Shown here: in pieces, positions 59,132-62,690 of the stretch | Numbering within the stretch: position 1 is the first letter of the stretch | How the letters are laid out: each line of letters opens with the position of its first letter | Source: Rhodococcus rhodochrous | Lineage (GTDB): Bacteria > Actinomycetota > Actinomycetes > Mycobacteriales > Mycobacteriaceae | Assembly (NCBI RefSeq): GCF_014854695.1 | Contig: NZ_CP027557.1 | Location: forward strand, 3,224,001 to 3,288,000 | DNA length: 64,000 nt | Direction of reading: 5' to 3' | Made by a program: the position numbers and the translations under genes | Notes under the pieces: model-generated | Seen by the model: only the letters and a program-made list of their open reading frames with translations | Databases searched by the model: none | What the model was told of the DNA's origin: nothing

Positions 59132-59211
59132 CAAAATTGACGCGCGGCGGGGTGGGACGCCGGTCGGCGCCATCCCCTGCACCGACGCCGTCGACACGGC
59201 ATGCTGGTCGA

Positions 59212-60960
59212 GTGCACACCTTCGAGGTCTGGGCTCCGGTCCCGTCGTCCGTCCGGCTGTTCGCCGACGGACGGCTCCACGACATGCAACGCGACGACGG
59301 CGGCTGGTGGCGCACCACCGTCGACGTCGCTCCCGACACCCGATACGGTTTCGTGCTCGACGACGACACCGGGACGGTCCTTCCCGACCCGCGATCTCCG
59401 CGTCAGCCGGAGGGCGTGCACGAGCCGTCGCAGCTTCACGCGCTCGACGAGACGAAGTGGACCGACCGCGGCTGGACCGGCCGACAACTGACGGGAAGCA
59501 TCGTCTACGAGATGCACGTCGGGACCTTCACCCCCGAGGGCACGCTCGACTCGGCGATCGACCGTCTCGACGAACTCGTGGATCTCGGTGTCGAGTTCGT
59601 CGAACTCATGCCGCTCAACGCGTTCAACGGCACCCACGGATGGGGCTACGACGGCGTGCTCTGGTACGCGGTGCACGAACCCTACGGCGGCCCCGACGCC
59701 CTGCAGCGTTTCGTCGACGCCGCCCACGCGCGCGGACTGGCAGTGGCACTCGACGTCGTCTACAACCATCTCGGTCCGTCGGGGAACTATCTGGGGCGCT
59801 TCGGCCCCTATCTCTCCGCGGCGCCGGGAATCTGGGGCGACAACATCAACCTCGACGGTCCCGGATCCGGGGAGGTGCGCAGGTACATCCTCGACAATGC
59901 GCTGCGCTGGTTCCGCGAGTTCCACATCGACGCCCTCCGGCTCGACGCCGTGCACGCGCTGATCGACCACACCGCCACACACCTCCTCGAGGAACTGTCG
60001 GTCGAGACGTTCCGCCTGTCCGCCCATCTCGGTCGTCCCCTGTCGTTGATCGCCGAATCGGACCTCAACGATCCGAAGCTGATCACTCCCCGTCCCGGCG
60101 GTGGATACGGACTGCACGCGCAGTGGGCCGACGACGTCCACCACGCGATCCACGCGGCGGTGTCCGGTGAACGGCAGGGTTACTACGGCGACTTCGGTTC
60201 CCTGGACTGCCTCGCGTACACGCTCGGGCACGGCTTCTTCCACGCCGGGACGTATTCGAGCTTCCGCGGCCGGGTCCACGGGCGCCCGCTCGACACCCGG
60301 CGCACACCGGCGAGCGGTCTGGTCGCCTACACCTGCACGCACGATCAGGTCGGCAACCGGGCGCTCGGCGACCGGCCGGGTGCCTATCTCGAAGCCGGTC
60401 AGCTCGCCCTCAAGGCTGCGCTCGTGCTCACGTCCCCGTTCACGCCGATGTTGTTCATGGGCGAGGAGTGGGGTGCGAGCACACCCTTCCGGTACTTCAC
60501 GTCGCATCCCGAACCGGAACTCGCCGCGGCCGTGGTCGAGGGTCGCCGGCGCGAGTTCGCCGAACACGGCTGGGACGCCGCCGACGTACCCGACCCGCAG
60601 GCTCCGGAGACCTTCACCGGCTCGAAGCTGCGCTGGGACGAACGCGACGAGAACGGGCACGCCCGGCTGCTGGAGTGCTACCGCGCGCTCATCGCGCTGC
60701 GGCGGAACCGCGCTGAGCTCACCGATCCCTGGCTCGAGCACGTGCACGTGACGTACGACGAGGACGAGAAATGGCTCGTCGTACACCGCGGTGCGCTGCG
60801 GGTGGCGTGCAATCTCGGACCCGATCCCGTCACCGTGCCGGTCGGCGGGAAACCGCTGCTCTGGTGGGACGAACCGGTGGTCAACCGCACCGAGTCCGCA
60901 GTACTGATCCCGGGCTGGTCGTTCGCGGTCCTGGAGGCTCCCGAGACGCCCCGCCGATAA
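59212..60960 (+). CDS. treZ: Malto-oligosyltrehalose trehalohydrolase
   Basis: Encodes 582 aa from GTG 59212. It releases trehalose from the maltooligosyltrehalose made by TreY. Domains are an N-terminal beta-sandwich (HTFEVWAPVPSSVRLFADG), GH13 barrel with LMPLNAFNGTHGWGYDG and LDVVYNHLG, nucleophile D245 in DALRLDAVHAL, acid E282 in LIAESDLND, and CTHDQVGNRALG. The third gene of the TreX-Y-Z route, here about 4.3 kb away from treXY because of an inserted block. Confidence 0.95.
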   Translation: MHTFEVWAPVPSSVRLFADGRLHDMQRDDGGWWRTTVDVAPDTRYGFVLDDDTGTVLPDPRSPRQPEGVHEPSQLHALDETKWTDRGWTGRQLTGSIVYEMHVGTFTPEGTLDSAIDRLDELVDLGVEFVELMPLNAFNGTHGWGYDGVLWYAVHEPYGGPDALQRFVDAAHARGLAVALDVVYNHLGPSGNYLGRFGPYLSAAPGIWGDNINLDGPGSGEVRRYILDNALRWFREFHIDALRLDAVHALIDHTATHLLEELSVETFRLSAHLGRPLSLIAESDLNDPKLITPRPGGGYGLHAQWADDVHHAIHAAVSGERQGYYGDFGSLDCLAYTLGHGFFHAGTYSSFRGRVHGRPLDTRRTPASGLVAYTCTHDQVGNRALGDRPGAYLEAGQLALKAALVLTSPFTPMLFMGEEWGASTPFRYFTSHPEPELAAAVVEGRRREFAEHGWDAADVPDPQAPETFTGSKLRWDERDENGHARLLECYRALIALRRNRAELTDPWLEHVHVTYDEDEKWLVVHRGALRVACNLGPDPVTVPVGGKPLLWWDEPVVNRTESAVLIPGWSFAVLEAPETPRR

Positions 60961-61046
60961 CGTTCGTCAGGCGAAAAAGTCGTTGATTATGCCGCGAGTG
61001 GGCGAGTACCGTCTCAAGTACCGTCGAATTCTCGAGGTGAATCACC

Positions 61047-61325
61047 ATGCAACCCAAGAAGATTCTGGCGAGCGTATTCCTCAGCACCGCACTCGTCCTC
61101 GCCCCTGCGGGGGTCGCCTCGGCGTCACCGGTGGTCGACACCTCCCCTGGCGTCGTCGCCGTCAACCACGACCACCGAGACTACGACAAGCACCACAAGA
61201 ACGATCACAAGAGGGATCGCGACCACGGCAAGCACCACAACAAGGACTGGGATCGCCGTTGGGACAATCATTGGCGTCCCGACTGCTTCTGGTTCGGCCC
61301 CTGGCTGGTGTGCTCGCCCTGGTAG
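61047..61325 (+). CDS. Secreted His/Asp/Lys-rich small protein
   Basis: Encodes 92 aa. A Sec signal peptide (MQPKKILASVFLSTALVLAP) has a cleavage site after A26 (VASA). The mature about 66 residues contain nine His with many Asp, Lys and Arg (YDKHHKNDHKRDRDHGKHHN), then a Trp-rich tail with two Cys spaced C-x8-C (DCFWFGPWLVCSPW). Such composition suggests metal binding or an extracytoplasmic structural peptide. A GAGGTGA ribosome site precedes ATG 61047, and AGTACCGTC is repeated in the 86-nt upstream region. No family recognised. The ilvA gene converges on it with a 9-nt gap. Confidence 0.72.
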   Translation: MQPKKILASVFLSTALVLAPAGVASASPVVDTSPGVVAVNHDHRDYDKHHKNDHKRDRDHGKHHNKDWDRRWDNHWRPDCFWFGPWLVCSPW

Positions 61326-61334
61326 CGGCTCCGA

Positions 61335-62690
61335 CTAGGTGAGGTAACGGTAGGCCGGCGACCCCGGCTCGAGTCGCTGCGCGTCGATCGGCGACGCGTC
61401 CATGCGATTGAGCAGGGCCGAAAGGTCTTCTGCAGCACCCAGTTCGATACCGACGAGGGCAGCACCGGTCTCCCGGTTGTTGCGCTTGACGTACTCGAAC
61501 AGGGTGATGTCGTCGTCCGGTCCGAGGACTTCGTCCAGGAACCGGCGCAGTGCGCCGGGCTCCTGGGGGAAGTCCACGAGGAAATAGTGTTTGAGCCCGC
61601 GGTGGACGAGCGACCGCTCGATGATCTCGCCGTAGCGCGAGACGTCGTTGTTGCCGCCCGACACCAGGCACACCACGTTCGCTCCGGGCTGCACCGAGAT
61701 CGACTCGAGGGCAGCGACGGACAGGGCGCCGGCGGGCTCGGCGATGATGCCCTCGTTCTGGTACAGATCGAGCATCGTGGTGCACAGCGCACCCTCGTCG
61801 ATCTGGGTCATCCCGAACGGGGCTCGACCGAGTCCCTCCCGGCGCAGCGTGGCCACGAGCGGCAGGCTCGAATGGGACACGACCTCGGCACCGAGTTCGG
61901 ACACGACGGCGTAGGGGACGTCGCCGGTCCGCTTGACCGCAGCGCCGTCGACGAACGGCTCGACCTCCGGCAGCGTGACGGGACCGCCCGCGACCAGCGC
62001 GGCGGTCATCGATGCTGCGCCGGCCGGTTCGACACCGACGATCGACGTGCGTGGGGACCGCTCGCGCAGATAGGCGGCGACACCGGCGATGAGGCCGCCC
62101 CCGCCCACGGGGACGAGCACCACGTCGAGATCGCCGTCGAGCTGCTCGAGGATCTCGCGCGCGATGGTGCCCTGCCCGGCAGCGGTGCGGGCGTCGTCGA
62201 AGGGCGGGATCATCGTCGCCCCGGTGCGGATCGCATCGTCGGCGGCGGCCGCAGCCGCGGCGTCGAAGGTGTCGCCGACACCGATGAGTTCGACGCTGTC
62301 GCCGCCGTGAACACGGATCCGGTCGCGCTTCTGCTTGGGAGTGCGGGTGGGCACGTAGATGCGGCCCTGGATTCCCATCACCCGGCACGCGTAGGCGACG
62401 CCCTGCGCGTGGTTGCCGGCGCTGGCCGTGACGACGCCCGCGGCGCGCTCGGCCGCGTCGAGCTGCGCCATGGCGTTGTACGCCCCGCGGAGCTTGAAGG
62501 ACCGCACACGGGTGAGGTCCTCACGCTTGAGGTAGACATTGGCTCCCACGAGGGCCGAGAGCCGGGGGCTGTGCTCGAGCGGCGTCGGGGCGACCGCCTC
62601 CGAAATTCGCTCGGCAGCCGCATCGATGTCGGCCGCGCAGGGCACGGCGGTCACAGTCATCGGTTCTGCTGTTCGCGAAGTGGAGGTCAC
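61335..62690 (-). CDS. ilvA: Threonine deaminase, biosynthetic
   Basis: Encodes 451 aa from GTG 62690 (ATG 62660 would give 441 aa and has no better ribosome site). PLP enzyme that turns threonine into 2-oxobutyrate for isoleucine. PLP Lys66 is in RSFKLRGAYN; the glycine loop is PVGGGGLIAG. The C-terminal about 90 residues form one ACT-like domain (HYFLVDFPQEPGALRRFLDE), so feedback by isoleucine is expected. Linked to the tre cluster and the deazaflavin-type reductase as in mycobacteria from memory. Confidence 0.93.
   Translation of the reverse strand: MTSTSRTAEPMTVTAVPCAADIDAAAERISEAVAPTPLEHSPRLSALVGANVYLKREDLTRVRSFKLRGAYNAMAQLDAAERAAGVVTASAGNHAQGVAYACRVMGIQGRIYVPTRTPKQKRDRIRVHGGDSVELIGVGDTFDAAAAAAADDAIRTGATMIPPFDDARTAAGQGTIAREILEQLDGDLDVVLVPVGGGGLIAGVAAYLRERSPRTSIVGVEPAGAASMTAALVAGGPVTLPEVEPFVDGAAVKRTGDVPYAVVSELGAEVVSHSSLPLVATLRREGLGRAPFGMTQIDEGALCTTMLDLYQNEGIIAEPAGALSVAALESISVQPGANVVCLVSGGNNDVSRYGEIIERSLVHRGLKHYFLVDFPQEPGALRRFLDEVLGPDDDITLFEYVKRNNRETGAALVGIELGAAEDLSALLNRMDASPIDAQRLEPGSPAYRYLT

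Follow-up and report, generated by a model that had tools for sequence, protein, structure and literature searches.

A short open reading frame that lies between treZ and ilvA in Rhodococcus rhodochrous raises the question of whether it is a gene at all and, if so, what its small product, rich in histidine and aspartate, does once it has left the cytoplasm. We analyzed it within a 64,000-nucleotide stretch of the genome (hereafter the window). The first-pass annotation had offered two roles for the product, namely extracytoplasmic buffering of zinc, copper or nickel, or surface binding.

A gene beside ilvA and its conserved upstream region

The frame at 61047-61325 of the forward strand runs from an ATG start to a TAG stop over 92 codons and encodes 92 amino acids, which read MQPKKILASVFLSTALVLAPAGVASA (the signal peptide) and, after the cut, SPVVDTSPGVVAVNHDHRDYDKHHKNDHKRDRDHGKHHNKDWDRRWDNHWRPDCFWFGPWLVCSPW (the mature part). 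The features discussed below are the following.

60983..61012, forward strand: candidate promoter (invariance across aligned upstream regions)
61034..61040, forward strand: Shine-Dalgarno sequence GAGGTGA, 6 nt ahead of the ATG (sequence, upstream alignment)
61047..61325, forward strand: gene for the exported peptide, stop included (orthologues, low dN/dS)
61047..61124, forward strand: Sec signal peptide, residues 1-26 (cleavage before Ser27/Pro28, AxA type)
61137..61163, forward strand: mature N-terminal motif D-T-S-P-G-V-V-A-V, residues 31-39 (conserved in nine syntenic orthologues)
61164..61271, forward strand: low-complexity D/H/N/K/R/W/Y/G linker, residues 40-75 (sequence and length vary, composition kept)
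61272..61322, forward strand: aromatic tail WRPDCFWFGPWLVCSPW, residues 76-92 (conserved; predicted beta-hairpin at 79-90)

The signal peptide, which is followed by S, has a basic start, a hydrophobic core and an A-S-A cleavage site; A24, A26 and P28 are invariant in the orthologue alignment and K5 is nearly so. Inspection of its sequence found neither a lipobox cysteine nor twin arginines. The mature part holds 9 His, 11 Asp, 5 Lys and 6 Arg, is also rich in Asn and has a net charge of 0, and the tail that ends the protein contributes its two cysteines as Cys80-x8-Cys89. The first-pass description of a signal peptide, a His/Asp/Lys/Arg-rich mature part with nine histidines and a C-x8-C aromatic tail therefore agrees with what we found: the AxA cleavage site follows residue 26, the counts match the sequence, and Cys80 and Cys89 lie at the C terminus.

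The same annotation had named a homologue search in Rhodococcus as a check, and this search recovered orthologues: the gene is present in 11 of 18 genomes of the genus, its own included, and the 10 other carriers include Rhodococcus sp. JCM 9791, HM1 and CH91. Matches in G009 and G025 were left out, as their frames exceed 800 aa and were taken as compositional. Whole-gene dN/dS is about 0.11-0.43 among unsaturated orthologue pairs; for the linker alone, the two closest orthologues give 1.8 over 31 codons, with too few changes for this value to be used. No paralogue was found in the whole genome of the strain, where the gene is single-copy. Because the gene is missing from 7 of the 18 genomes, its role must be dispensable. 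A chance ORF might be suspected, given that the gene is short and adjoins the 3' end of ilvA, but the orthologues, the low dN/dS, the Shine-Dalgarno sequence and a conserved promoter-like block together indicate that 61047-61325 is a genuine gene, and comparison with the orthologues refutes the suspicion, to which we assign a negligible probability. An origin in a phage or plasmid was also considered and is disfavoured, as no protein-level match was found in the plasmid collection or in the phage collection.

The promoter-like block consists of a candidate -35 element TTGATT (60983-60988), a spacer of 18 nt and a candidate -10 element TACCGT (61007-61012). An alignment of nine upstream regions, one of them from a relocated copy in CH91, shows TTGAT, GTACCGT and parts of the spacer to be invariant and GAGGTGA to be invariant or nearly so; further upstream, the same nine regions show no sequence conservation between clades. 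Genome G003 carries the variant TTGATT-N18-TACGGT and genome G006 the variant TTGAAA-N16-TACCGT, and the pattern TTGAT-N19-TACCGT occurs only once in the whole 6.09-Mb genome. A generic sigma-70 scan did not report this site, because its -10 hexamer is far from TATAAT. We regard the block as a candidate promoter that is supported by comparison. No palindromic regulator site or inverted repeat was found upstream of the gene. A direct repeat, AGTACCGTC, is present at 61005-61025 in two copies that are 12 bases apart; the first copy holds the candidate -10 element, whereas the second falls on the likely start of transcription, and other species keep it only in part.

All nine orthologues in the mature-part alignment adjoin ilvA. 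Eight of the nine share the arrangement of the window, with treZ on one side and ilvA on the other. G006 and G003 have a gene for a TetR-type regulator on the other side, with treZ about 2.3 kb away. In four genomes (G009, G011, G013 and G016) treZ directly adjoins ilvA and the peptide gene is cleanly absent, and in CH91 (G007) a divergent copy is located elsewhere in the genome. This relocated copy (L020:3935-4276) keeps the promoter-like block, is without the first tail cysteine, and has as neighbours a TetR gene and, in convergent orientation, a response-regulator gene. Both neighbours in the window were identified by NCBIfam models above their cut-offs, treZ (malto-oligosyltrehalose trehalohydrolase) by TIGR02402 and ilvA by NF006390. 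The listed TTG start of the treZ ORF (59137-60960), at 59137, is probably too early, and its family match begins only at residue 28 (HTFEVWAP). The peptide gene has no operon partner. It is convergent with ilvA, and only 9 bases separate the two stop codons (61323-61335); since no terminator-like hairpin was found between them, the two transcripts probably overlap.

A fixed tail and a variable linker

The conservation pattern of the peptide is uneven. The fixed elements of the orthologues are the signal peptide, D-x-x-P-G-x-x-x-V and the tail WRPDC-FWFGPWLV-CSPW, and the nine orthologues beside ilvA all combine a signal peptide, DxxPGxxxV, a variable linker and a C[FY]W[FW]GPW[LW]VC tail. Pro28, Asp31, Pro34, Gly35 and Val39 are invariant at the mature N terminus of these nine, as are W76, R77, C80, W82, G84, P85, W86, V88, C89 and W92 in the tail, whereas linker positions vary. 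The tail of G003 reads PAPCWWFGPWLVCAPW. That of CH91 reads HAWFGSSVICLPW and is divergent; because it is without the first cysteine, a disulfide cannot be universal among the orthologues.

The histidines follow another course. Their number ranges from 3 (G006 and G003) or 4 (G004) to 11 among the orthologues, and none of their positions is invariant. Net charge stays near zero (-6 to 0), and the orthologue linkers contain only 0-4 residues outside D/H/N/R/K/W/Y/G. Neutral drift simulated from the window's linker under a GC-rich mutation pattern, with insertions and deletions disregarded, gave means of 7.6 such outside residues at 0.2 substitutions per site and 12.6 at 0.4. This comparison suggests that the linker keeps its composition against drift and does not keep its sequence. 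Given that the codons of Asp, His, Asn and Tyr are one base apart, the number of histidines can drift easily within such a limit. This pattern of conservation gives no indication that metal is what selection acts on.

Two AlphaFold runs, one with the full alignment and the other with the mature parts alone, agree that only the tail is confident (pLDDT 74 and 72, respectively, against about 46-55 for the linker). They predict strands at 79-83 and 86-90 that pair as a beta-hairpin around Gly84-Pro85, with Cys80 opposite Cys89. The overall pTM was low (0.17-0.19), and therefore only the local tail hairpin is usable from these models. A search of solved structures returned just two matches, both attributable to chance (E 0.42 and 2). 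Thus, the linker is predicted to be disordered and the tail to form a small beta-hairpin.

Possible roles of the peptide

This peptide is unusual in that it combines an aromatic hairpin, Cys-paired and strongly conserved, with a linker that changes under compositional constraint. We tentatively favour, at somewhat less than an even chance, an exported and largely disordered charge-balanced chain that works within the cell envelope or at its surface and whose disulfide-closed aromatic hairpin tethers it to a hydrophobic envelope component, probably the mycolate layer. Export and the hairpin are well supported; the disulfide, the binding partner and the location are what we infer in addition. 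The signal peptide would direct export, and signal peptidase would free about 66 residues. Outside the cytoplasm the Cys80-Cys89 pair would oxidise and close the tail hairpin. With four Trp/Phe side chains grouped about its Gly-Pro turn and a C-terminal Trp, this hairpin may serve as the binding element by inserting into, or sticking to, a mycolate or glycolipid layer. The linker would be a soluble, charge-balanced spacer exposed at the surface, so that, if the hairpin is held in the envelope, the hydrated linker would form a tethered surface coat; as a side property, the linker may also bind metal weakly. Disulfide-cyclised Trp-rich beta-hairpins include designed trpzip-type hairpins and antimicrobial ones. 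The tail resembles them in its C-x8-C loop and its aromatic residues around a tight turn, although here the hairpin is a predicted one, has no sequence relation to them, and forms the tail of a long charge-balanced chain.

Surface binding, as one of the two roles first proposed, thus fits better than the other, since conservation in the mature part is highest in the aromatic C-x8-C tail, for which a disulfide-closed hairpin is predicted. Metal buffering, in which the His/Asp-rich chain would bind zinc, copper or nickel ions outside the membrane, is not the best-supported role, and we consider it unlikely. It nevertheless stays the main rival, because disordered His-rich chains do bind zinc: the disordered His-rich loop of ZrgA does so, mostly with low affinity (PMC9820375). 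The nine histidines and eleven aspartates of the mature part, the up to 11 histidines of orthologues, and weak compositional matches to ZrgA, ZnuA, DmeF and CopL models also speak for it. However, the ZrgA loop is not needed for ZrgA function (PMC9820375), the histidines fall to 3 or 4 in the orthologues named above and hold no fixed position, and metal ligands, which an extracytoplasmic buffer should conserve, are not conserved across the orthologues. There is no metal gene near the peptide gene, nor an inverted repeat ahead of it. No Pfam or NCBIfam model reached its cut-off for the window protein, which bears out the earlier statement that it resembles no known family, and the other family members gave nothing convincing against these models. 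The scores were 11.7 bits against a cut-off of 27.4 for ZrgA PF10986, 9.6 against 185 for ZrgA NF047873, 13.8 against 40 for the CopL metal-binding regulatory family NF033807, and 12.6 against 25 for the Rhodococcus equi virulence-associated protein PF05526, where only the signal peptide and a low-complexity stretch match. Matches to ZrgA, CopL and models of that kind reflect composition and fall far short of the cut-offs. The peptide shares with ZrgA/ZnuA-type zinc proteins its export and a disordered His/Asp-rich stretch, but it has neither a folded binding domain nor a transporter operon.

The small size of the peptide, its export, its single Trp-rich C-x8-C loop and its patchy distribution in the genus would suit a secreted antimicrobial or signalling peptide, with the hairpin as the active part and the remainder as a pro-region or solubilising tail. 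Such a peptide seems improbable here, as the net charge is about zero or negative instead of cationic, immunity, transporter and processing genes are absent beside the gene, and the tail is strongly conserved within the genus. Slimmer still are the prospects of a hydrophilin-like exported chain that guards the envelope in desiccation or osmotic stress and is linked to treZ: the disordered, charge-balanced Gly/Asn/Asp-rich linker and the confirmed identity of this neighbour agree with it, but the gene has its own promoter-like block, is separated from treZ by the TetR gene in G003 and G006, lies elsewhere in G007, and encodes a conserved tail that this role would not explain. Searches for arrest peptides have used three criteria, an N-terminal export signal, a hydrophilic stretch of more than 40 aa and a conserved C terminus (PMC7897499), and the peptide displays all three. 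A translation-arrest secretion monitor of the SecM/ApdA/CutF type, whose conserved C terminus stalls the ribosome, was therefore considered, and it is disfavoured to the point of being very improbable, because the decisive criterion is a co-directional target gene directly downstream (PMC7897499); ilvA is convergent across its 9-bp gap, and the next gene in CH91 is convergent as well. Thus, the peptide is like ApcA, ApdA, SecM and the copper sensor CutF (PMC7897499, PMC9973294) in being short and exported with a conserved C terminus and a variable middle, but it lacks such a target, and its tail contains no RAPP-like or SecM-like motif.

Small secreted orphan proteins are common in actinobacteria, and the sorting and retention of small proteins in the mycolate outer layer are poorly understood. 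If the envelope-anchor reading is true, a short conserved tail would hold a protein in the mycolate layer without lipid attachment. If the peptide is a metal or stress protein instead, it would add modestly to the orphan gene families in Rhodococcus.

Relatives in other genera

The peptide belongs to an undescribed, lineage-restricted family of exported proteins, and the literature yielded nothing specific to it. Sequence comparison places it in only one group of Rhodococcus, and searches beyond the genus recovered no close relative. A strict tail pattern occurred in 8 of 401 genomes of the bacterial family, every one in this genus. The looser C-x-W-x-G-P-W-x-x-C, run on 397 genomes of the order, matched about as often as a reversed control, and the matches inspected were not short exported proteins. 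A class-wide profile search gave one outside match (E 3e-6), to a low-complexity protein.

A profile search recovered weak relatives in other genera of the same bacterial family (g44, g16 and g43). These have a signal peptide with PG[VIY]xxVD(R) at the start of the mature part; their linker is D/R/H/N/W-rich and their C-terminal tail is short and hydrophobic. The tails end in GLFGSS/FGGLFGS or are otherwise unlike, without the CxWFGPWLVC hairpin. Their gene neighbourhoods differ as well, and therefore the function cannot be read from them. When the first 14 mature residues were shuffled in seven of eight such proteins (L061 was left out), every one of 200 shuffles scored below the real sequence for four proteins, as did 197-199 of 200 for two more; for the last one, 17 of 200 shuffles reached the real score. 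Distant homology is thus likely for some of them. We regard it as quite unlikely that the peptide represents a new class of exported proteins in which a C-terminal disulfide-closed hairpin would anchor fast-evolving charge-balanced chains in the outer mycolate layer of mycolate-bearing bacteria, with the relatives that carry other tails as variants.

A possible wider family in other genera is represented by L051-L065 (for example, L056:1501-1752, L052, L059 and L065), which share a signal peptide, PG[VIY]xxVDR, (DRDH/DRDW) repeats and a GLFGSS or FGGLFGS tail; one of them, L065, closes with a Cys-paired aromatic tail whose sequence is different. In genus g50, profile matches (L066 and L069) fall in PPE-like proteins of about 500 aa that contain a long His/Asp-rich stretch, EHDHDHDHDGDHDHDG. 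These matches are probably compositional, and a His/Asp-rich segment in a PPE protein is unusual in itself.
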